Positions 41,488 through 54,570 of a stretch of DNA of 64,000 bases are shown piece after piece. Position 1 is the stretch's first letter. Every line of letters starts with the position of its first letter. This stretch comes from Actinopolyspora mortivallis DSM 44261 (GTDB taxonomy: Bacteria; Actinomycetota; Actinomycetes; Mycobacteriales; Pseudonocardiaceae). The position numbers and the translations under genes were made by a program. The stretch covers positions 2,714,405 through 2,778,404 of the forward strand of contig NZ_KB913024.1 in assembly GCF_000384035.1 (NCBI RefSeq), given 5' to 3'. The notes under the pieces were generated by a model that did not search any database, was not told the origin of the DNA, and saw nothing but the letters and a program-made list of their open reading frames with translations.

Positions 41488-41830
41488 TTATCCCGTTGAC
41501 CTGCGACGGGAGGCCAGATCGACGACCTTGCCGTGATCGTCGTCATCGGCCACGTGGGGCAGATGTGGGGCACCATCGTGGTGCGAGTGCCCCTCCCCTT
41601 CGAATCCTGCCCCACTCAGTGCCCCACGAACGGCGTCCCACTGGGTGTCGGCGAGGTGGGCGTACCGCTGGGTCATCGTGATCGTCGAGTGCCCGAGCAG
41701 CTCCGAAACCTGCTCGACCGTCACACCCCGCCGGAGCAGCCACGAGACATACGCGTGACGTGGGTCATGCGGAGTCAGGCCGTCGAGTCCGGCGGCCTGA
41801 ACCGCCGGGTTCCACCGGTCCCTTCGGAGA
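41488..41830 (-). pseudogene. Tyrosine integrase, C-terminal remnant
   Basis: Read on the minus strand from 41830, the frame is RWNPAVQAAGLDGLTPHDPR, then HAYVSWLLRRG, VSELLGHSTITMTQRYAHLA and a His/Asp-rich tail ending at 41488. These contain the catalytic HxxRH (as HDPRH), the second His region (LGHST) and the nucleophile Tyr (QRYAHL) of phage-type integrases. All sequence N-terminal to this, including the first catalytic Arg, is gone, replaced at exactly 41831 by a type I-E CRISPR repeat. The orientation towards tRNA-Arg is that of pSAM2/SLP1-like elements. It cannot integrate or excise by itself. Confidence 0.88.
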
Positions 41831-41858
41831 GATCCATCCCCACGCCTGCGGGGAGCAC
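41831..41858 (-). repeat. Solitary type I-E CRISPR repeat
   Basis: CATCCCCACGCCTGCGGGGA plus AGCAC-type flanks at 41831-41858 differ from the repeats of the type I-E array at 42480-42812 in only a few positions. It is followed on the plus strand by a copy of the type I-E leader-proximal sequence, so it is the leader-end repeat of a lost array. Confidence 0.85.
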
Positions 41859-41859
41859 G

Positions 41860-41903
41860 GTGACCTGCGATCTTAACAGCACTTTCCCGCTGTGAGAATC
41901 ACT
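41860..41903 (-). repeat. Copy 1 of the type I-E leader segment
   Basis: GTGACCTGCGATCTTAACA at 41860-41878 and ACTTTCCCGCTGTG near 41881 recur at 42818-42861 with about four mismatches in 44 nt. Both copies directly adjoin a type I-E repeat at the end where a leader is expected (repeats transcribed on the minus strand). Confidence 0.85.
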
Positions 41904-41972
41904 GTTGTCCCCGGGCAGGGAGCTCGTCCACGGAGTCAACGACTTCCCGAACCAGCGTGTTCGACACGAACC

Positions 41973-42304
41973 CCTTCGATCTTCGCCAGCCCCGAAGGGC
42001 TGGCGCCACGGCCGCGATCACGTCCGACAGCTCGGGCTCGGCGTCGTTGCGATCCTCGCCAGCCCCGAAGGGCTGGCGCCACCTGCCGCAGCTTCCGGAA
42101 GATCCTGCCCAGCCGCTGGTTGCGATCCTCGCCAGCCCCGAAGGGCTGGCGCCACCCGTATCCGGGGGCCGTTCGGGATACCGGGTCGGGCTCGTTGCGA
42201 TCCTCGCCAGCCCCGAAGGGCTGGCGCCACCCGACCAAGTCGTCGCCGACATGCTCGGCAAAAGTGCGTTGCGATCCTCGCCAGCCCCGAAGGGCTGGCG
42301 CCAC
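41973..42304 (-). CRISPR. CRISPR array A, type I-C repeat family, 5 repeats and 4 spacers
   Basis: 37-nt repeats at 41973-42009 (degenerate, distal end), 42046-42082, 42119-42155, 42194-42230 and 42268-42304; spacers of 36, 36, 38 and 37 nt. In crRNA sense the repeat begins GTGGCGCCAGCCCTTCGGGG and ends GGATCGCAAC, with a 10-bp stem. It differs from the repeats next to the cas operon mainly in the loop (TTCG instead of TGCG). The intact leader-side end at 42304 adjoins a leader shared with arrays B and C. It is about 10 kb from the cas genes but should be served by them. Confidence 0.95.
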
Positions 42305-42430
42305 GGCAGATGAGCAGGGATGTCCGGGATATCCACACCCCGGCTGTGACCGATCCGTGACCGACACGCCGAGCAGAGGCTTGGGAACCTCCCGGCGTGT
42401 CGCCACACACTTCCCCTCCCCAACCACCGA
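42305..42430 (-). promoter_or_regulatory. Leader of CRISPR array A
   Basis: On the plus strand this reads GGCAGATGAGCAGGGATGTC, then CTGTGACCGATCCGTGACC, GACACGCCGAGCA and GGGAACCTCCCGGCGTGTCG. The same blocks occur next to arrays B and C. GACACGCCG and CGGCGTGTC form an inverted repeat, a candidate adaptation or promoter element. Confidence 0.8.
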
Positions 42431-42479
42431 GCCCCGCCTACGCGGGGGTGCGTGACCCGATTTTGCCTAAAACCGGCCC

Positions 42480-42812
42480 AGCACGGCCCCGCGCCTGCGG
42501 GGAGCACGTCATCGTCATGATTGACGGAGACATCCAGTACGGACCATCCCCGCGCCTGCAGGGAGCACTGTTCAGGCTAGCTGGCACTCCGCACATCATG
42601 GGGACCATCCCCGCGCCTGCGGGGAGCACGATTACACGTGAGGTGTTAAATGGCTACGATGGGGACCATCCCCGCGCCTGCGGGGAGCACTCACCCTTAA
42701 TACGATTAATTAGGGAATATGCCGGACCATCCCCGCGCCTGCGGGAAGCACATTAGCAGATTTCATACCTGTTCTCACAAGTTGGGACCATCCCCGCGCC
42801 TGCGGGAAGCAC
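42480..42812 (-). CRISPR. Orphan type I-E CRISPR array, 6 repeats and 5 spacers
   Basis: 28-nt repeats begin at 42480, 42541, 42602, 42663, 42724 and 42785, with a constant period of 61 nt and 33-nt spacers. In crRNA sense the repeat is GTGCTCCCCGCAGGCGCGGG followed by GATGGTCC, the classic type I-E form of actinobacteria. The two repeats nearest the leader carry one change (GCGGGAAGCAC on the plus strand). The spacers near the leader are AT-rich (for example 42691-42723), unlike the genome. No type I-E cas genes (cse1, cse2, cas6e) are in this window. Confidence 0.96.
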
Positions 42813-42817
42813 ACTTC

Positions 42818-42861
42818 GTGACCTGCGATCTTAACAATACTTTCCCGCTGTGGGAATCACT
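42818..42861 (-). promoter_or_regulatory. Type I-E leader segment, copy 2 (functional position)
   Basis: Lies 5 nt outside the leader-end repeat of the type I-E array. It is about 90% identical to 41860-41903. The transcript of the array runs on the minus strand from here. Confidence 0.75.
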
Positions 42862-42920
42862 TTTGGTTCGGAAAGCAGCGGCAGTCAGTACCAGTAGCCG
42901 GATCGCTGACCAGCGAGCCG

Positions 42921-42957
42921 GTTGCGGTCCTCGCCAGCCCCGCAGAGCTGGCGCCAC
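42921..42957 (-). repeat. Solitary type I-C-type repeat, left copy
   Basis: 37 nt matching the type I-C repeat family with two variant positions (GCGGTCC for GCGATCC, and GCAGAG for GCAGGG). The same variants occur in the copy at 43704-43740. The bases GAGCCG precede both. No second repeat lies within spacer distance. Confidence 0.85.
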
Positions 42958-43065
42958 GCGCATCATAGTCGGACAACCGGCTGTTCGTTGTGCGGAATAA
43001 TGATCACCGACAAGGATACGTGTACGCTCGCAGCGCCTCTCGGTCCAGACCAGCGCTTTCGCACG

Positions 43066-43813: not shown

Positions 43814-44968
43814 TTACAGCGGCCAGTGGACAGCGCTGTCAGGGTGGTCGATCCAGAGCCACTGGTGGTGGGCGGTGGCGGTGAGGCCGAGGCGGGGCCA
43901 GTCGGGCTGGTCGTGCTCAAGCCAGGTGTGGTGAGCCTGTTCGACGGGCTCCCACAGCGGGGTCGGCCCCGTTTCGGTGACGTCGTAGCGGCCGGCGGTG
44001 GAGTCGGTGAGGCTCACCTCGGCGGTGGAGCCATCGGGGGCGGTCATCGTAGCCGCTGCCGGTTGCCGAGTGTGTGGGTCCAGGCGCATGCCGACGGTGA
44101 CGCCGTCGGGCAGGCCGTGGACCTGGGCGAGCAGCCAGACCACGCGGTTGTCCCACCAGGGGCTCGGTGGCGTGGTGGTGCTGCGGGTCCGTGGTTCGGT
44201 GGTCGACCGTGGTGCGGGTGGTTCCTGGTTGTGGGTGTGGTGGCGCATGGTCATGAACGCCACCCACCGGTCGGTGAAGCGTCCTTCCAGCCGGTCCGGA
44301 TGCCGGTGCAGCAGAACCAGGTTGCCCGCGTGGACGGTGGGTTTGACGTTGACGAGCACGGCCCCGCCGGGGGCGAGCTGCTCGGCCCAGGTCCACGGCA
44401 CGCGGGGCACCGAGCAGGTGGCGATGATGCGCTCGTAGGGCGCGTACTCGGCCAGCCCGTCCGCGCCGTCGCGGGCGGCCAGGGTGGGGTGGTACCCGAG
44501 GCTGGCCAACCGGGTGCGGGCGGCCTCGACCAGTTCCGGGTCGATGTCGACGGAACACACGTTGCGGTCGCCGAGCCGGTGGGACAGCAGCGCGGTGGTG
44601 TAGCCGGTTCCGGTGCCGATGGCCAGCACCCGGTGTCCGTCGTGGATGTCGAGGGTTTCGAGCATCCGCACGATCAGGTCGGGTTTGGTGCCGCTCGAGG
44701 TGGATTCCCTGTGGGTGCTGCGGTCGGTGAGTTGGGTGACCAGGGTAGTGGGGGAGTAGGCCAGGTCCAGCCCTTCCGCTGAATCCGTGGTGAGGTGGTG
44801 CCAGGTTCCGGTGCTGTCCTGTTGGTGTGCTTCGGGAACGAGTACGTGCCGGGGCACGGCGGCCACGGCGGTTTTCCACGCCGGGTCGGTGAGGTCGCCG
44901 CGGGTTTCGAGGTCGTCGGCGAGTCGGCGTGCTCGCCAGGTCCAGTCGGTGTCGAGGTGTGTGGTCAC
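43814..44968 (-). CDS. tgmC: PIMT-like methyltransferase of graspetide cluster (TgmC type)
   Basis: A 384-residue SAM-dependent methyltransferase related to protein-L-isoaspartate O-methyltransferase. The N-terminal lid is VTTHLDTDWTWRARRLADDL. The SAM site is HRVLAIGTGTGYTTALLSHR near residue 108, then VCSVDIDPELVEAARTRL and YERIIATCSVPRVPWTWAEQ, as in PIMT. A C-terminal extension of about 150 residues follows, typical of the RiPP-associated form. In characterised graspetide clusters such enzymes methylate an Asp side chain, leading to aspartimide in the product. Its GTG overlaps the tgmB stop by 4 nt (GTGA), and AAGGGG lies upstream. Confidence 0.85.
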   Translation of the reverse strand: MTTHLDTDWTWRARRLADDLETRGDLTDPAWKTAVAAVPRHVLVPEAHQQDSTGTWHHLTTDSAEGLDLAYSPTTLVTQLTDRSTHRESTSSGTKPDLIVRMLETLDIHDGHRVLAIGTGTGYTTALLSHRLGDRNVCSVDIDPELVEAARTRLASLGYHPTLAARDGADGLAEYAPYERIIATCSVPRVPWTWAEQLAPGGAVLVNVKPTVHAGNLVLLHRHPDRLEGRFTDRWVAFMTMRHHTHNQEPPAPRSTTEPRTRSTTTPPSPWWDNRVVWLLAQVHGLPDGVTVGMRLDPHTRQPAAATMTAPDGSTAEVSLTDSTAGRYDVTETGPTPLWEPVEQAHHTWLEHDQPDWPRLGLTATAHHQWLWIDHPDSAVHWPL

Positions 44969-45915
44969 GAGGGCCCCTTGCTCAGTAGGTCGGCCAGGGT
45001 GCTGGTCAGTGGGTGGCCGGTGGCGGCTTCGAGCCAGCCATACTGCCCGCCCGGGTTGATTTCCAGGAAGGCCCACTCACCGTCCGGGGTGACGACGAAG
45101 TCCAGCGCGCCGTAGACCAGCCCGAAGCTGTCCAGCAGCGTCCGGATCCCGGTGGCGACGGGTTCGGGAGTTTCGATCGGTGCGTAGGACAGCGCGTCGT
45201 AGTCGGAGCGCCAGTCGACGTAGGTGCTTGTGCTGCCCGCGTGGATCGCGGCGGCGAACAGCTGCCCGCCGATGGCGATCACCCGTGTTTCGAACGCTTT
45301 GGGCACCCACCGTTGCAGCAGGTGCGTAGTGGTCTCGATGCCGCGCAGATCGTCCAGCTCGGCCTGGTCGAGCAGCCGGGACCAGGAGACCTTGCGGGTG
45401 CCGTCCTCGGAGATCGTGTTCGAACCGAGCAGTTTCGTGATCGTCGGCTCCGTGGCGAACTCGCGCACCGGCTCTGTTTCGTTGGTGATCAGCGTGTCCG
45501 GCACCGTCAGCCCGCACTGCTGGGCACGGACGAGCTGCACGGGCTTGTAGGCCGCATCGGCCATCCGCGAGGGGTGGTTGACCCACAGCACGTCCAGACT
45601 GGACAGCACGCCGCCGAGCCCGTACTTGGCTTCCAGGAACGCGTGGTGGCGTTCCGCGTCGGACAGTTCACTCGGCATCCGGTACGCCTCGGGGCTGCGG
45701 TACCACACGGCGTGGATGTCATCGAGGGAGACGAGTTGACCAGGTGTGTGCAGGTGTCCGGACCACCGGCCCCGGCGCAGCCCAGCCGAGAGGTTGAGCT
45801 ACGCGGGAAACCATCCGGTGTTCACCCGAGCCACCGCCGTGCCGCGTTCGGAAAGCGCGGTTATCATCGCGTCCGCAGTCGGATCGAGATCACGAGCCAG
45901 GATGAGAACGGTCAT
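44965..45915 (-). pseudogene. tgmB: ATP-grasp RiPP maturase (TgmB type) interrupted by an in-frame TAG
   Basis: The full frame starts at ATG 45915, overlapping the precursor stop as ATGA, and begins MTVLILARDLDPTADAMITA, then SERGTAVARVNTGWFPA. A TAG follows at 45801-45799 (codon 39), after which the same frame continues LNLSAGLRRGRWSGHLHTPG and runs without shift to 44965. Later parts are typical of the SAV_5884-like ATP-grasp family: RQ-free VWYRSPEAYRMP, VNHPSRMADAAYKPVQLVRA, TVPDTLITNETEPV, LQRWVPKAFETRVIAIGG and FLEINPGGQYGWLE, the last with metal-binding Glu/Asn. It should form ester or amide links in the precursor. Unless the TAG is read through or the remainder reinitiates (GTG 45708), the enzyme lacks its N-terminal domain. 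Confidence 0.88.
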
Positions 45916-46241
45916 GCCGGCGGCCCCGGAAAGTCCGGCGCGAAGTCGTACATCCAGTCTTCGACTCGTCCTTCGTCACCGTCACTGACCGAGTCGGCGC
46001 TGGGGTCCATCCGCAAATCATGGAACGAGTTCCCCTCGCGGTCGACGGCCACCTGCCGCTCGTGGTCGTAGTGCCACTCCGAGGGCAGGCCACGGCCCGT
46101 GGACGGCACGGTGTGCATGCCTCGCAGTCCCCACGGCCGTACCCCTTCGGGTGAAGCGGTGTCGGTGTTCTCGGCGAGCCCGCTCGGCCGGGCGAGCGGG
46201 AACTGAGAGCTGTCTGGGGCCAGCGGATCAGCCACTGTCAT
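45912..46241 (-). CDS. tgmA: Graspetide precursor peptide (TgmA type)
   Basis: A 109-residue precursor of the ATP-grasp-target RiPP family. The leader has a FPLARPSGLAE start and the recognition-like PEGVRPWGLRGMHTV near residue 33. The C-terminal core region is rich in Ser/Asp/Glu with aromatic residues (SFHDLRMDPSADSVSDGDEG, then RVEDWMYDFAPDF), suited to side-chain ester or amide rings. AGGAGG 5 nt before the ATG at 46241 decides the start. The stop overlaps the tgmB start (ATGA). The exact core boundary cannot be told from one sequence. Confidence 0.85.
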   Translation of the reverse strand: MTVADPLAPDSSQFPLARPSGLAENTDTASPEGVRPWGLRGMHTVPSTGRGLPSEWHYDHERQVAVDREGNSFHDLRMDPSADSVSDGDEGRVEDWMYDFAPDFPGPPA

Positions 46242-46500: not shown

Positions 46501-46746
46501 TTACAGGCGGCGCAGCCCGGCCAGCACACGGGCCAACAGCGCCGGCTCACACGACCACCCGCGGGGCTGTGCCCCGTGACCGCTCGCCGGGCAGATATCT
46601 CCGTCACGGCGGTAACCGCCAGGGCACCGCACCGGGTGCGGCCCCGGTGCCGCGAGGTCGCCGGACAGAGCGAGCACGTGCCCCGGTAGCCGACACGGCC
46701 GGAACCCGTGCCCTCCGAGACAGGGTCGGGACCGGTCGGCACTCAC
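46501..46746 (-). pseudogene. Probable decayed Cys-rich small gene upstream of tgmA
   Basis: Two overlapping frames each look half real: one reads GYRGTCSLCPATSRHRGRTR C-wards from a GTG at 46742, and the other, ending at 46501, reads CPGGYRRDGDICPASGHGAQ and PRGWSCEPALLARVLAGLRR. Joined by one frameshift near 46625-46640 they would give a single Cys-rich protein of about 80 residues. It follows the interrupted gene at 46743-46998. I cannot name it. Confidence 0.35.
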
Positions 46747-46998
46747 CGTCCGGTCTCCACGACCGTGGGCCGCTCGCCCTGCCCGGCGGACAGCTCGCCC
46801 GGTTCGTCGGTGTACTCGCGCAACGCGGCGGCCAGCTCGTCCAACGCCTCGGCCAGGGCGTGCCGATCTTCGGTGGGAAACCGTTTGCCGCCGAGGGCCT
46901 AGGCGACCTCGTCCCCCATCCACGGGCCTCGACCCAGCAACATCGCCAGTCGCGTGTGCGGCCGGCTCACCGGGCACCACCACCACGGGTTCGTGCAT
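46743..46998 (-). pseudogene. Small regulatory-operon gene with frameshift and in-frame TAG
   Basis: ATG 46998 has a strong GGAGGTGA site and starts MHEPVVVVPGEPAAH. The continuation in protein-like sequence is in the next frame: TRLAMLLGRGPWMGDEVA, then a TAG at 46901-46899, then ALGGKRFPTEDRHALAEALD and ELAAALREYTDEPGELSAGQ to a TGA at 46743. The 256-nt length confirms the shift, which fits loss of one AC unit in a CACAC run near 46953. The intact ancestor would be about 85 residues with a helical C-terminus. It lies between the XRE regulator and tgmA on the same strand. Confidence 0.55.
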
Positions 46999-47081: not shown

Positions 47082-48269
47082 TTAGGTGACGTTCAATCGG
47101 TCGGCCAAGTTCCGCAGCCGGGGGTCTCGTGTGCGGCTGCCACGTAGCAAGTCCCGTGTGACTGACTTGAGCAACTGTTGCCGCTTGGCCCACTCTGGTG
47201 CCATCTGCTCGGCAGTGAGTACGAGTGTGCTCGCCTGTTCGTGGTGGCCGAGTCGAGAATGGGCGAGCGCTCGGTCAGTCAGGTGACGGGCACGGGCCGC
47301 GATTGGCAACCCTGCGGCATTGTGCGGCATGATGCGCGCCGACTCGAGCGCTTGCCCGTACTCGCCGGTCTGCACGTTAACGTCGACCGATTGCATCGCT
47401 ACTTGCGACGGTCCGAAAACGCTGTTGTAGTCGTCGCGGTCCCCTCCGATCCGGTGGGCTACCTCGGCGCTCGTGTCGATCAGTGAGCGCGCCTGAGCCC
47501 GGTTGCCACGGCGAGCGGCAGCGGTCGCCGCAGTCACAATCAGAGAGCCATACGTCGACAAGTGTGGGAAGAAGCTCTCCCCACTCGGTTCGACCCGTTC
47601 GGCCATGCGCAGAGCTACCGCTTCGGATTCTGTGAACCGTCCCGCAGTGAGTAGTTGCCAGGCCATCGAACCACGCAGCGCGGCAGCGAGCAGCTGGTCA
47701 TTTCCGTACCCGGCGAGTTCAATCGCGTGGCGCAGCGCGATGTAAGCCGCATCTGACTGGTGCAGGTGAATCAGCGTGGAGCCGGCTGCCCAGAATCCCT
47801 GTGCCACCAACTCCGAGGCACGCGGCGATCCCGTGGCGCGAGCGGTCGCACGGAGCGAAGCCAACGCCGGAGGGAGCAGCGCGGTCAGCCGGTCATACTT
47901 TCCGGACCAGTAAGTCCCCCACAAGTAAGTGAGCTCCCGCTCGGCTTCGGCCAGGGACAGCGGTTCGCCCGCTTCCGACTCCCCGGTCAGATCATCGACG
48001 TTAGCAACCGCGAATCGTAGAGCGGCCACACCTTCAGCGGGAGCCTGCTCCGGCATCCGTGCCGGGCCGATGAGATCGCCGAGCGGCACGTCCAGCGCTC
48101 GGGCGATCTGGTGCAAGCTCGCCACACTGGCCGTGTTACGTCGCCCCTGCTCAAGTTTGCGCACCAGGTCCACCGACACGCCCGCAGCGGTCGCAAGATC
48201 CTGTTGCGTCATCACCCCGTCCCGAAACCGCCGAATACGCCCCCCGAGGGGCACATCATGACGAGTCAC
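47082..48269 (-). CDS. XRE family regulator with C-terminal TPR-like domain
   Basis: A 395-residue protein. The N-terminal HTH is RIRRFRDGVMTQQDLATAAG with VSVDLVRKLEQGRR, then a long helical TPR-like region (LATRAS-like segments such as AYIALRHAIELAGYGNDQLL and YGQALESARIMPHNAAGLPI). Such regulators often accompany graspetide and other peptide clusters in actinomycetes and may sense a peptide. GAGAGG about 9 nt upstream supports the GTG at 48269; the ORF can be extended to 48419, but that covers a large palindrome and is not protein-like. It is upstream of tgmA in the same direction. Confidence 0.85.
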   Translation of the reverse strand: MTRHDVPLGGRIRRFRDGVMTQQDLATAAGVSVDLVRKLEQGRRNTASVASLHQIARALDVPLGDLIGPARMPEQAPAEGVAALRFAVANVDDLTGESEAGEPLSLAEAERELTYLWGTYWSGKYDRLTALLPPALASLRATARATGSPRASELVAQGFWAAGSTLIHLHQSDAAYIALRHAIELAGYGNDQLLAAALRGSMAWQLLTAGRFTESEAVALRMAERVEPSGESFFPHLSTYGSLIVTAATAAARRGNRAQARSLIDTSAEVAHRIGGDRDDYNSVFGPSQVAMQSVDVNVQTGEYGQALESARIMPHNAAGLPIAARARHLTDRALAHSRLGHHEQASTLVLTAEQMAPEWAKRQQLLKSVTRDLLRGSRTRDPRLRNLADRLNVT

Positions 48270-48281
48270 AAGACATCGCCT

Positions 48282-48350
48282 CTCTTCGCGGAAGTCGTCC
48301 TCTTCGCGAACCCCCGGCCCGTCGACCGGGGGCAAAACCTCCGCGAAGAG
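48282..48350. promoter_or_regulatory. Triple CTCTTCGCG element with nested palindrome
   Basis: CTCTTCGCG occurs at 48282-48290 and 48300-48308, and inverted (CGCGAAGAG) at 48342-48350. The second and third copies form a CCTCTTCGCG/CGCGAAGAGG stem that encloses another stem, CCCCCGG/CCGGGGG, around a short loop. It lies directly upstream of the XRE/TPR regulator start. It is either a multi-site operator for that regulator or a structured 5' leader RNA. Confidence 0.6.
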
Positions 48351-48412
48351 GTACGCACCGAGGATAGCGGGAACACGATCAGGTGACGAGACGCTGGGTA
48401 TCTCGTCCGCTC

Positions 48413-48535
48413 CGGTCACTGGCCGACGGCGCCGCCGTCCGCGATACCAAGGACCGCTCGGCCGGGTACTTCACCACCACCCGCCAGCAGTGGACCGCGT
48501 TCCTGGACGCGGTGAAGAACAACCGCTTCGAATGA
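48413..48535 (+). pseudogene. DUF397 gene, C-terminal remnant
   Basis: The plus-strand frame ending at TGA 48533-48535 reads DGAAVRDTKDRSAGYFTTTR and QQWTAFLDAVKNNRFE, the exact C-terminal half of a DUF397 protein (VRDTKD...F....W..F). The N-terminal half is missing and no start is present. It is probably debris of an XRE/DUF397 pair. Confidence 0.75.
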
Positions 48536-48599
48536 TCCCGTAGCGACAGCGCGGCGCCCCCATTACCTTCTTGTGGTGGCCCCGCAAGGGGGCTCCCGG

Positions 48600-48796: not shown

Positions 48797-50030
48797 GTGG
48801 TCGAGCCCAACGAGATTGGCGCTTTCGTCGGCTTGGATGTCGGTCAGAGCGAACACCACGCCCGTGCCCTCACCCCGGACGGCACGAAGGTCCTGGATAA
48901 ACGACTTCCCAACAACGAGGCGAAGCTACGGGCGATCGTCGACAAGCTGCAGGCCAAGCATGGCACCGTGCTGGTGGTGGTCGACCAGCCCGCCTCCATC
49001 GGGGCGCTGCCGCTGGCAATCGCCCGTGACACCGGCTGTCAGGTGGCAGTCCCTGCCCGGTCTGACCATGCGGCGTATCGCCGACCTCTATCCCGGGGAA
49101 GCGAAAACCGATTCCCGGGATGCGGCGGTGATCGCCGACGCTGCCCGCACCACGGGCACACACCCTGCGGGATCTGGCCCCCGATGACGAAACCGTGGCC
49201 GCGTTGAGCATGCTGTGTGGCCACGACGATGACCTCGCCGCCGAGGCCACCCGGGTGCGCAACCGGCTACGCGGACTGCTCACCCAGATCCACCCGCACC
49301 TCGAACGCGTCCTGGGGCCGCGCCTGGACCACCCCGCCGTGCTGAAGCTGCTGTCTGACCACGACACCCCGGCCTCGCTACAAGATACCGGGCACGACGG
49401 CCTGGTCGAGCTGCTGCAACCACACGCTCCACGCATGGCCGAACGTCTCGCCACAGAAATCTGCACCGCACTGGCCGAGCAGACCGTGGTCGTGGCAGGC
49501 ACCGACGCCGCAGGTCTGGTCATCCCCAACCTCGCGGCCAGCCTGCGCACCGTGCTGGAACAGCGCCGCGACGTGGAAAGCCAGATCGAGGCCCTGCTGC
49601 AGGCCCACCCTCTTTCCACGGTCGGAGACGTCGATGCCCGACATTGGTGTCTCCGACCGCAGCCCGCATCCTCATCGACGTCGGCGACGCCAGCCAATTC
49701 CCCACCGCCGCCCACCTGGCCGCCTACGCCGGACTCGCTCCCGCCACCCGCAGTTCAGGCTCATCCATCCGCGGCGAACACCCCGCCCGACGCGGCAACA
49801 AGCAGCTCAAACGGGCCTTCTTCCTGGCCGCGTTCGCCTCGCTGCACCACCCACCCTCACGGGCCTACTACGCCAAAAAGACAGCCCAAGGCAAACGCCA
49901 CACTCAAGCCCTCCTCTGCCTCGCACGACGCCGCTGCGACGTCCTCCACGCCATGCTCAAAAACACCCACCACCCACACCCCCTTGACCCAACCCATAGA
50001 GGCACCCCCGACGAGGACCTGCGCTGCGAA
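48797..50030 (+). pseudogene. IS110-family transposase, frameshifted
   Basis: The N-terminal DEDD domain is seen as VEPNEIGAFVGLDVGQSEHH (first Asp), then RRIADLYPGEAKTDSRDAAV in another frame. A third frame holds LSMLCGHDDDLAAEATRVRN and RLRGLLTQIHPHLERVLGPR. The C-terminal Tnp_20 domain (TAARILIDVGDASQFPTAAH, LAAYAGLAPATRSSGSS, RGNKQLKRAFFLAAFASL) is in yet another frame. Frame changes are near 49050, 49165, 49625 and 49645. The family uses a DEDD/Ser active site and a bridge RNA. The copy is dead; relics of about 400 residues remain. Confidence 0.9.
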
Positions 50031-50279
50031 GGGGGCGTCCTCGCCCGGAAACGGGCCGCTCGGACTGGGCGGGGAACCTGCGAGGGGACGTGCTCGCGCG
50101 TCCTCACGCAGGACGAACAGGAACTTCTTGTGCCGTACATCATATCTGGCACTGGTGGTCATGTGTCCGTTTGACCCCATGTTGCGTGAGAGGCTGGCAT
50201 ACTCGTGATCACGAGTTCACTGGGGGCTCTGCCCGAAACTGACGTTTTCAGTACGTGTGATCTGGGGAGGTAACCGATC

Positions 50280-50720
50280 ATGAGTGATGGTTTGTCCTCC
50301 AAGCTTGAGAGTATTCCCGAAAAGGCAAGCCCGGAGGAAGCCGCACGGATCCTGTTCCCGGACGACGAGCAGGCACAGCAGGAGTACGTGCAGCAGGCCA
50401 ACACGCTGTAGGAGGCTTACGACCAGGCCCGACGCGAGGCCGCCGATGTCGGAGAGGCCGAACCGATGGCGTTGCCCGCGTTCGTCGCCGCGGCCCTGCC
50501 GATCATCGCCCGATGTGTCATCAGCGGCCTCGGGGCTGCCGGAGTCAACGAGATCATCAACCTGGTCCACAAAGGCGAGCAGGCCACAGCGGAGTCACGT
50601 GTCTATGCACTCGTCGGCGGCTGCATTCAGAGCATCATTCCGTGGAAGTGGATGGCTAACAAGCTGAGGAAACCGATCGCTACTGCCGTGCTGTGGATCA
50701 TAATCAAATGGAACACCTGA
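50280..50720 (+). CDS. Possible bacteriocin-like hydrophobic peptide gene with internal TAG
   Basis: A strong GGGAGG precedes ATG 50280. The frame reads MSDGLSSKLESIPEKASPEE, then AARILFPDDEQAQQEYVQQA and NTL, and meets TAG at 50409-50411. The same frame goes on EAYDQARREAADVGEAEP into MALPAFVAAALPIIARCVIS and ends IPWKWMANKLRKPIATAVLW and IIIKWNT at 50720. If read through, it is a 146-residue precursor with a hydrophilic leader and a hydrophobic, cationic C-terminal part with two Cys, like a bacteriocin precursor. Alternatively the ATG at 50466, with GGAGAGG 7 nt upstream, makes an 84-residue protein by itself and the first 43 codons are a separate ORF. A small membrane protein gene follows. 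Confidence 0.55.
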
Positions 50721-51751: not shown

Positions 51752-51931
51752 CCGGCCGGGTTCGCCAGCCCCGCAGGGCTGGCGCCACCAGATACCGGGC
51801 CAGCGGTCGGCGGCCCACCGGATGTTGCGATCCTCGCCAGCCCCGCAGGGCTGGCGCCACTCCGTTCAACTCGCAGATGTGGCGCGAGTATCGAGTTGCG
51901 ATCCTCGCCAGCCCCGCAGGGCTGGCGCCAC
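51752..51931 (-). CRISPR. CRISPR array B, type I-C, 3 repeats and 2 spacers
   Basis: 37-nt repeats at 51752-51788 (degenerate distal copy), 51824-51860 and 51895-51931, with spacers of 35 and 34 nt. In crRNA sense the repeat is GTGGCGCCAGCCCTGCGGGG then CTGGCGAGGATCGCAAC, identical to copies in array C. The leader lies to the right, between the array and cas3, so the array points away from the cas operon. Confidence 0.95.
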
Positions 51932-52356: not shown

Positions 52357-54570
52357 GTGTACGCACACAGCGTCAACGTCAACGGCGACAGGCACGGCTT
52401 CTCGGAACACGCGCGTGCCACCGCGGAGCTGGCCGCCCGGTTCGCGGAACCGTTCGGGTACTCCGAGTTGGCACACGCCCTCGGGCTGTTCCACGACTGC
52501 GGGAAAGCTCGGTGCGCGTGGCAGGAAAGGCTGCTGCGAGTCGAGGGCACCGACGAACCCGTCGGCGTTCCCCACAAAGATCTGGGCGCGCACCTGCTGA
52601 AACCAGCGGCGGGTATCGCCGCGATGGCGATCCACGGCCACCACGGCGGACTCTCCAACCGGGAAGAGCTGAAGGAGTTGGATCCGGAGGACGGTGACCT
52701 CACCGACGAGCCGGTGAAACGCTTCCTCGAAGCCCTCCCCGAGGCGAAGGAATTCCTCGACCTGCCGGTGAACTCACTGCTTCCACCGGAGTGGGCCGGC
52801 TCCCGACTGCTGGCCGAACTGGGGATGCGGCTGGTGTTCTCCGCCCTGGTGGACGCCGACCACCTCGACACCTCGGCACACTTCGACGGTCTCGGGGCAC
52901 CACGGATCTCACCCGAGTCCGACATGTCCGCCCTCCGCGACACCTTCGAACGAGCCCGTCAGTGGAAACTCGCGGACAGCGAGGACTCCCCGATCAACCG
53001 GGTCCGCGAGGAGGTCTACCGCACGGCGATCTCACACGCGACGGGACCGACAGGCATCTACGGCATGCCCGCCCCGACCGGGATCGGCAAGACCCTCACC
53101 AGTGCCGGTTTCGGGCTGCACCACGCGGCCGCGCACGGCAAGAAGCGGGTGATCGTGGCGGTTCCGTTCACCACCGTCACCGCTCAGAACGCGGCCGACT
53201 ACCGGGAAATGCTCGGGGCGGAGAACGTGCTGGAGCACCACTCGGCCGTCCGCATGCCGGAGGAGGGCCGGCAGGCGCTGCAGTACCGACACGCCACGGA
53301 GAACTGGGACAGCCCGTTCATCGTGACCACCACGGTGCAGCTGTTCGACTCGTTGTTCTCCCACAAGCCCGCCAGGATGCGCAAGCTGCACCGCCTCGCC
53401 GATTCGGTGATCATTCTCGACGAGGTGCAGGCCCTGCCGCTGCCCGTGCTCACTCCGATTCTCGATGCGCTGCGCACCCTCTCGGAACACTTCGGAACGA
53501 CCGTGCTGCTCACCTCGGCCACCCTGCCCTCGTTCCAGACCCTCGACGTCTGGCGGGACCTGAAAGTTCCCGAGATCGTCGACGCCCCGACCGAACTGTT
53601 CGAGCGGATGCGCCGGGTGAATTACGAGTGGTGGATCGACCCGCGGCCCACGTTGTCGGAGGTCGCCGACCACGCCGCCGAGCACGAACAAGTCTTGCTG
53701 GTCGTGAACACGACCGATGACGCGAGAAAGATCTACCAACACTGGGAGGAGTCCGGCCTCGAGAACATCGTCCACCTCTCGAACAGGATGTGCGGAGCAC
53801 ACCTGAAAACCGAGCTCGACGGAATGCGTGCCCGGCTGGCATCAGGCGAACCGGTCCGCGTGGTGTCCACGCAGCTCATCGAGGCCGGTGTGGACATCGA
53901 CAGCCCGGTGGTCTACCGCGCCATGGCACCAGCCGACTCGTTGCAGCAGGCAGCGGGGCGAGCCAACCGGGAGGGCAAGGGAGCGGAGTTCGGACGGGTG
54001 ATTATCTTCGATGCTTCGGACATGTCGCAGCCCGCTGGCTACCGGATCGGAAGCGATATCACGCGCCAGTACTTCGGTCCGCAGCCCGACGGCTCGATGA
54101 TCGATCCGGACAACCTACAGGTCCTGGACAGCTACTACCAGGTGCTGTACCGGCGTTCCAACACGGAAAACGCCGACCGGGCCACCGCGATTCAGGAAAA
54201 CCGCTCGAAGCTGGATTTCCAGGCCGTGGCGGAAGGACCGAAGCGACCATCCCCGGCGGGTGGACAAGCACGCGAGCCTTCCCTGGCGTTCCGGATGCTC
54301 GACGACGACACCGTTCCGGTGGTGGCGATCAAGTACGACCCCGAGGCCGATCGGCGCCTCAGCCGTCTGCTCAGCGAACCGGAGCGGAGCGGACCACTGC
54401 TGCGCGAACTTCAACCCTACGTCGTGTCGCTGCCGCGTCGACTCCTGCAGGATCCGGGGATCCAGGCGCTCTGCAGGCCCGTACTCGGTGATCTGCACGT
54501 GTGGGACCACGAGTACCACCCGGCCTACGGCATCGACACCTCGACCCTGATCGAAAGGAACGTCTTTTGA
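52357..54570 (+). CDS. cas3: CRISPR-associated helicase/nuclease Cas3 (type I-C)
   Basis: A 737-residue Cas3 with N-terminal HD nuclease and SF2 helicase domains. HD features are YAHSVNVNG at the start, GLFHDCGKARCAW near residue 45 and AIHGHHGGL near 90. The helicase has Walker A PAPTGIGKTLTSAG near 240, DEVQALPLP at 355, VLLTSATLP near 385, and motif VI QQAAGRANREGKG near 530. It unwinds and degrades target DNA after Cascade binding. The GTG at 52357 starts immediately before YAHS. The next gene overlaps its stop. Confidence 0.97.
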   Translation: MYAHSVNVNGDRHGFSEHARATAELAARFAEPFGYSELAHALGLFHDCGKARCAWQERLLRVEGTDEPVGVPHKDLGAHLLKPAAGIAAMAIHGHHGGLSNREELKELDPEDGDLTDEPVKRFLEALPEAKEFLDLPVNSLLPPEWAGSRLLAELGMRLVFSALVDADHLDTSAHFDGLGAPRISPESDMSALRDTFERARQWKLADSEDSPINRVREEVYRTAISHATGPTGIYGMPAPTGIGKTLTSAGFGLHHAAAHGKKRVIVAVPFTTVTAQNAADYREMLGAENVLEHHSAVRMPEEGRQALQYRHATENWDSPFIVTTTVQLFDSLFSHKPARMRKLHRLADSVIILDEVQALPLPVLTPILDALRTLSEHFGTTVLLTSATLPSFQTLDVWRDLKVPEIVDAPTELFERMRRVNYEWWIDPRPTLSEVADHAAEHEQVLLVVNTTDDARKIYQHWEESGLENIVHLSNRMCGAHLKTELDGMRARLASGEPVRVVSTQLIEAGVDIDSPVVYRAMAPADSLQQAAGRANREGKGAEFGRVIIFDASDMSQPAGYRIGSDITRQYFGPQPDGSMIDPDNLQVLDSYYQVLYRRSNTENADRATAIQENRSKLDFQAVAEGPKRPSPAGGQAREPSLAFRMLDDDTVPVVAIKYDPEADRRLSRLLSEPERSGPLLRELQPYVVSLPRRLLQDPGIQALCRPVLGDLHVWDHEYHPAYGIDTSTLIERNVF

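Follow-up and report, generated by a model that had tools for sequence, protein, structure and literature searches.

The 64,000-nucleotide stretch of Actinopolyspora mortivallis DSM 44261 analyzed here (contig NZ_KB913024.1, positions 2,714,405 to 2,778,404; "the window") harbors tgmABC, a gene cluster for a graspetide, i.e., a ribosomally synthesized and post-translationally modified peptide (RiPP) processed by an ATP-grasp synthetase. It is very probably a graspetide cluster with a protein isoaspartyl methyltransferase (PIMT)-like partner, whose synthetase gene tgmB recently gained a nonsense codon. The tgmA and tgmC genes and the tgmB frame all lie on the minus strand, with 4-nucleotide overlaps at both junctions (ATGA, GTGA): the tgmB frame starts with an ATG at 45915 overlapping the tgmA stop and is closed by the TGA ending at 44965, and tgmC starts with a GTG at 44968 overlapping the tgmB stop and runs to a TAA ending at 43814. 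GGAGG stands immediately 5' of the tgmA start. Between the TAG at codon 39 of tgmB and the closing TGA lie 277 sense codons, and the first in-frame ATG, GTG or TTG past the TAG is the GTG at 45708 (codon 70), where a gene caller would begin an open reading frame (ORF) of 247 amino acids (aa). The cluster comprises:

45912..46241, minus strand: tgmA, graspetide precursor, 109 aa (ATG at 46241, stop ending at 45912; TIGR04186 match)
44965..45915, minus strand: tgmB, ATP-grasp graspetide synthetase frame broken by an in-frame TAG (TIGR04187, orthologue alignment and PF21068)
45799..45801, minus strand: the in-frame TAG, tgmB codon 39, within the pre-ATP-grasp domain (sequence, alignment and PF21068)
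44965..45708, minus strand: 247-aa ORF as a gene caller would list it, without residues 1-69 of the pre-ATP-grasp domain
43814..44968, minus strand: tgmC, PIMT-like RiPP methyltransferase, 384 aa, open, with a GTGTG motif (TIGR04188)

An earlier note on this DNA had described the tgmABC order with its two overlaps and PIMT-like partner, the TAG at 45801-45799 followed by 277 codons, and an ORF caller starting at 45708. Coordinates, family matches and a renewed reading of the sequence agree with all three descriptions.

The interrupted frame is a graspetide synthetase

TgmA matches TIGR04186 (ATP-grasp-modified RiPP; E 5.7e-6, 26.3 bits, above the cut-off of 25), the 247-aa TgmB fragment matches TIGR04187 (ATP-grasp ribosomal peptide maturase; E 1.9e-86, 290 bits, below the cut-off of 350) and TgmC matches TIGR04188 (ATP-grasp peptide maturase system methyltransferase; E 1.7e-100, 337 bits, below the cut-off of 380). 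Only TgmA among the three passes its curated NCBIfam cut-off; the lower score of TgmB is probably due to scoring the 247-aa fragment only. The PCMT domain match is limited to residues 94-223 of the 384-aa TgmC, which carries an extra C-terminal domain. Besides its family match, the precursor aligns with those of eight other clusters, and the synthetase is MvdD-like by TIGR04187 and by PF21068 matches on either side of the TAG. On sequence grounds, the cluster is an aspartimide-type ("group 13") graspetide cluster by its parts and a disabled member by descent, filed as disabled rather than working because the synthetase gene, with its TAG at codon 39, is not one open frame.

To judge from homology, the reading frame is genuine TgmB both before and after the TAG. 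The PF21068 domain (MvdD pre-ATP-grasp), which covers residues 2-117 of an intact TgmB orthologue, is matched by adjacent parts: the 277-aa piece after the TAG corresponds to profile positions 41-118 (E 6.8e-7) and the 38-aa piece before it to positions 1-37, the latter weakly (E 0.026). The codon-39 stop thus falls inside the domain, and the 45708 ORF holds it from residue 70 on. The whole frame aligns with TgmB proteins from residue 1, and the 38 residues before the TAG, on whose homology to TgmB N-termini the earlier note had let its reading depend, do align with them. Open orthologues with 86-89% identity were found in three of ten Actinopolyspora genomes (the ten including its own), and two Saccharopolyspora loci encode TgmB at 73-74% identity; as in a pseudogene, a disabling change stands in a frame that is open in relatives. 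A guess that Gln had occupied codon 39 was borne out by two of the three nearest orthologues (loci L003 and L005; L and G numbers are our handles for loci and genomes), but the third has Arg (L004, which seems to be one record with L046) and the column is variable over 52 rows (R 19, S 11, Q 6, G 5, T 4, A 3, K 3, V 1). These are the aligned rows out of 60, cut at stops and with eight dropped beforehand; L009, L078, L079, L087 and L090 are truncated or frameshifted at this column and unreliable there.

By analogy with fuscimiditide and amycolimiditide, an intact TgmB would form ester bonds within the TgmA core, between side chains with hydroxyl and acidic groups; a single Asp would next be methylated by TgmC and close to an aspartimide. 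Here, tgmB translation would stop after 38 residues, and the 45708 restart product should not work, with over half of the pre-ATP-grasp domain missing. The graspetide PIMTs characterized so far do not modify linear precursors (PMC13001092, PMC10787088), so that TgmC would be left without substrate when the ester cross-links are absent. The pathway should therefore fall silent once TgmB is lost, except if a second synthetase acts in trans. The cluster's own pathway would then be off, at a first stage of decay, which may be tolerated since the cell can dispense with the trait or has it partly in duplicate. A restart at GTG 45708 or another codon might instead yield a working shortened enzyme, the downstream ORF being open for 247 codons with the ATP-grasp part kept. 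This is highly improbable, however, as residues 1-69 are absent from a domain spanning 2-117, all six solved homologues that were matched align from profile residue 1 or 3, and no Shine-Dalgarno-like sequence was seen by eye upstream of 45708.

The TAG as a probable nonsense mutation

The earlier note had offered decoding of the TAG as one of two explanations, and the three interrupted frames in the window do all carry TAG and are otherwise intact. Decoding as an amino acid, whether by a suppressor tRNA or by programmed or leaky readthrough, would yield full-length TgmB, yet the evidence leaves it a very small chance. RF1 is intact in the genome (490 bits against a cut-off of 423). A PylS profile search of the genome gave nothing over the cut-off of 178 and two matches only, of 24 and 21 bits, which are non-specific, since 13 of 14 control genomes also give a match (over the cut-off in only one). 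No CUA anticodon was found among 51 tRNA matches obtained with RF00005 and ARAGORN; ARAGORN assigned an anticodon to 50, and the remaining match (L108) has no CUA in its loop. Hence none of the three marks of amber decoding, a CUA tRNA, PylS or a lost RF1, was seen. A tRNA-like match of 32 bits at G000:C1:3999593-3999651 lacks most of the D arm and was not called by ARAGORN.

TAG also serves as an ordinary terminator, ending nine of the 133 long ORFs with a stop in a 464-kb sample (the window and 20 other stretches, each of 20 kb; six further ORFs run off an end). The mean codon log-odds fall across these TAG terminators from 0.127 before to -0.204 after, compared with 0.174 to -0.220 for TGA genes. 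TgmB matches occur in 133 of 390 genomes of the family, and among the roughly 150 matches listed (a hand count of rows, frameshifted copies not being scored as stops) four have a single in-frame stop, the positions corresponding to residues 39, 23, 297 and 60 (TAG, TAG, TAG and TGA, respectively). Because these four stops are independent and fall at different residues, there is no conserved recoding site. With stops read through, an N-terminal match covers residues 37-41 in 54 of 60 loci, the other six not covering them, and a stop at 39 was found in the window's locus only; an assembled-metagenome locus (L087) has its tgmB stop at residue 20. Among the loci compared, no relative thus shares a stop at this site. 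TAG accounts for 62% of the single-step nonsense opportunity in this codon usage (assumed transition weight 2.6), so that three TAG codons out of three are expected about one time in four (0.62 cubed) and are unremarkable. The proposal that the TAG is decoded is thus not supported, and the codon is most simply a nonsense mutation; trace leaky readthrough at codon 39 may still occur.

An assembly or base-calling error, with tgmB intact, is also improbable, if less so than decoding. Close relatives have intact copies, and the conserved columns and low dN/dS described below would then need no special pleading. Conversely, the assembly consists of a single contig (4,233,350 bases, 99.97% complete), the adjoining tgmC and regulator genes are open, and two more TAG-cut genes and a multi-frame transposase within 5 kb are consistent with genuine decay or, with lower likelihood, with poor sequence in this area.

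Age of the loss

The tgmB branch has a dN/dS of 0.225 against a background of 0.088 in a codon model (twice the log-likelihood difference, 2dlnL, 6.8). The tgmA branch stands at 0.192 against 0.115, which is not significant (2dlnL 0.25), and tgmC is unrelaxed, with 0.103 and 0.115 in two models, the first including and the second excluding the confounding, paralogue-like tgmC of G009. The loss of tgmB looks recent: the low dN/dS and the state of the conserved columns fit a recent event, as the earlier note had supposed in its other alternative.

Several points nevertheless weigh against a recently disabled gene. The codon-39 stop could be an assembly error, and the suppressor-tRNA search was based on RF00005 and ARAGORN alone. 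The count of nine TAG terminators is slightly generous, as one of these ORFs (L147) looks interrupted and one in the window is perhaps no gene. The dN/dS of the tgmB branch, although raised, is far below 1 (2dlnL 12.4), and all 46 TgmB columns in which 90% or more of 47 rows agree (five unreliable rows having been dropped) are kept here, where intact comparators deviate at 0 to 3 of them. With the frame so well kept and dN/dS below 1, either the loss is very recent or the protein still matters. Moreover, the intact tgmB of G008 has a higher ratio than the window branch (0.32; 2dlnL 9.0), so the raised value is not diagnostic and we rejected dN/dS as proof of relaxation.

The TgmA core, the TgmC motif and a second cluster

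The TgmA leader carries SSQFPLARP and RPWGLRGM. Its core has seven residues between [ST]x[ST] and EDW, compared with nine in eight aligned comparators and also nine in the TgmA of a broken cluster (L009); L053, whose core is related but not of this type, was left out of this count. The two-residue gap may be aligned either ahead of the DG stretch or inside it. Read from sequence, the shorter core is possibly a second lesion; it may impair the PIMT reaction more strongly than the cross-linking, or may be a harmless variant. Near the C-terminus of these PIMTs, a WXXXGXP motif is conserved in most (PMC13001092). The corresponding TgmC motif here is WLEHDQP, with W and P kept and D in place of G. 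This substitution (WLEHD[QR]P) is common to the window tgmC and those of G004 (L109), G008 (L110) and G002 (L112), and WXXXGXP is kept in G009, three paralogous clusters, S. rectivirgula and S. shandongensis.

A second tgmABC cluster lies at C1:195 kb of the same genome, with all three genes open, its TgmB being 58% identical to the interrupted one and the TgmA leaders of both clusters having QFPLARP and PWGLR in common. Rescue in trans can thus be envisaged: with the local tgmB dead, the second synthetase would cross-link TgmA and the local TgmC would act on the product. What makes this conceivable is the shared PWGLR motif, which resembles the RPFG motif proposed in ThfA as a putative recognition element for ThfB (PMC13003496). 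Consistent with it, ThfB accepts loops ranging from 4 to 72 aa (PMC12291112), and tgmC is not relaxed in either model. However, E replaces R before PWG in the second cluster's leader, the shorter TgmA core may misplace the aspartimide site, one- or two-residue shifts are generally not tolerated for AmdA (PMC13001092), and recent loss by itself also accounts for an unrelaxed tgmC. On balance, rescue is unlikely, if the least so of the alternatives considered. Still more doubtful is that the broken cluster is kept alive through its paralogue, with one synthetase serving two aspartimide graspetides in one genome. If the second synthetase did serve both precursors, it would be a case of natural enzyme sharing between paralogous graspetide clusters.

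Other intact and damaged clusters

Intact orthologous clusters in Actinopolyspora (L109, L110 and L111/L046, the last being A. xinjiangensis) and Saccharopolyspora (L047, L048) have the same three genes in the same order, with TgmB 72-89% identical but, unlike in the window, open. In L109 and L110, an additional gene of about 146 aa (L109:6640-7080 in G004, L110:7025-7437 in G008) stands between a conserved leader region and tgmA. It is absent from the window and from G009, is split over two frames in L110, and gave no match in a Pfam search.

Judging by the sequences compared, damaged clusters often keep tgmC. G002 has a full-length tgmC match next to a C-terminal tgmB remnant (80 aligned columns), with no tgmA matched within 17 kb; on its branch the dN/dS of tgmC is 0.16, below 1 (2dlnL 5.6). 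An RHS-repeat protein gene with a Hint-type domain (L112:8703-13604) starts just past this remnant. In Saccharopolyspora spinosa, tgmB is truncated and frameshifted, while the adjacent tgmC is matched over its full length. The tgmC matches of G379 (L163) and G201 (L164) are nearly full and free of stops, but in G189 (L165) tgmC lies in two frames, so that the PIMT is damaged too. As the losses look recent, retention of tgmC by selection is not demonstrated by this pattern. A second tgmB in G009 is spread over three frames, and the tgmC that belongs to it reaches the contig end without a stop. The other G009 tgmC (L111:8713-9861) is, from about nucleotide 300 of the alignment, 85-94% identical to the paralogous type of G003, and the two G009 copies are only 79% identical overall. 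The pattern suggests gene conversion; an assembly effect is possible, the contigs of both copies ending inside tgmC.

A probably decaying neighborhood

The surroundings of the cluster are decaying too. Within 5 kb, two genes besides tgmB are cut by TAG, and a transposase at about 48797-50174 (plus strand), which we take to be IS110-like, is scattered over several frames and probably broken. The genes concerned and the regulator between them are:

46743..46970, minus strand: small gene downstream of the XRE regulator, TAG at 46901-46899 (codon 24), from homologue translations
47082..48419, minus strand: XRE/TPR (NsdA-like) regulator lying upstream of the cluster, open, 445 aa, from a family search
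50280..50720, plus strand: small hydrophobic-protein gene, TAG at 50409-50411 (codon 44), through which an open homologue reads

In the first of these, the residue at codon 24 is His or Tyr in all 11 other loci translated. The gene has matches in nine of ten genus genomes, its own included, and G004 and G008 have homologues (L013, L011) located upstream of further graspetide clusters; a Pfam search with a homologue gave no match. The regulator possibly controls the cluster. The 50280-50720 gene has a good ribosome-binding site and is bacteriocin-like in look only; among the 390 genomes, one has an open homologue (L159, 53% identity) and two have weaker matches. Its TAG was found via a codon-usage scan for interrupted frames (over the 464-kb sample described above) and that at 46901-46899 by reading the sequence. 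The scan proved too insensitive and was set aside: even at the known tgmB site it gave negative scores before and after the TAG, and its silence elsewhere does not show that interrupted frames are lacking.

Upstream of the cluster lie inverted repeats, and part of the leader region is common to paralogous clusters. A small-protein C-terminus of about 36 codons at 48423-48538 (plus frame), presumably DUF397-like, is shared at 74-90% with loci that adjoin graspetide clusters of Actinopolyspora and of one Saccharopolyspora, and possibly indicates the insertion point of the regulator module. Repeats resembling clustered regularly interspaced short palindromic repeats (CRISPR) flank the region at 41827-42958 and 51752-51931, in two kinds with 61-nucleotide and 71-75-nucleotide spacing, and a 737-aa helicase-like ORF, which we assume to be cas3-like, starts at 52357. 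At gathering threshold, Rfam matches in the window were three tRNAs only.

Comparison with known systems

In the open-licence literature, which excludes subscription papers, we found no paper joining Actinopolyspora with graspetide, graspetide with pseudogene, or microviridin with nonsense mutation. Microviridin-type synthetases of solved structure (5ig9, 5ig8, CdnC 7mgv, AMdnB 7m4s) and 7drm are homologous to TgmB over the whole length by profile, with a precursor class that differs from TgmA. Microviridin-type systems are not known to include a PIMT partner.

The closest known systems are the graspimiditides (group 13: fuscimiditide, amycolimiditide, albusimiditide, SsfA(BM)), which are likewise actinobacterial, combine precursor, ATP-grasp synthetase and PIMT homologue, and have a core with DG and acidic or hydroxyl residues as in this TgmA (PMC13001092). 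Unlike them, the window's cluster has a synthetase gene interrupted by a nonsense codon and a TgmA core that falls two residues short of the length seen in relatives sharing this core. Once tgmB is dead, what remains is the same as in imiditides or type I pamtides, i.e., precursor and PIMT homologue only. Imiditide PIMTs, however, use linear peptides and graspetide PIMTs need a cross-linked one (PMC13001092 and PMC10787088), and the TgmC here is of the graspetide type by TIGR04188, not of the imiditide type. A bolder reading, related to survival of the cluster through its paralogue and likewise doubtful, is that synthetase loss with precursor and PIMT kept, as here, or with the PIMT alone kept, as in G002, is a route from graspetides toward imiditide-like, PIMT-only peptides.

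The cluster is real but ordinary, and new as a disabled member rather than as a kind. It matters for annotation in that automated gene calling would present the 247-aa fragment as if it were the whole ligase. Among known systems, the cluster adds a case of independent graspetide synthetase loss beside an open PIMT gene, comparable to G002, S. spinosa, G379 and G201, though not to G189.

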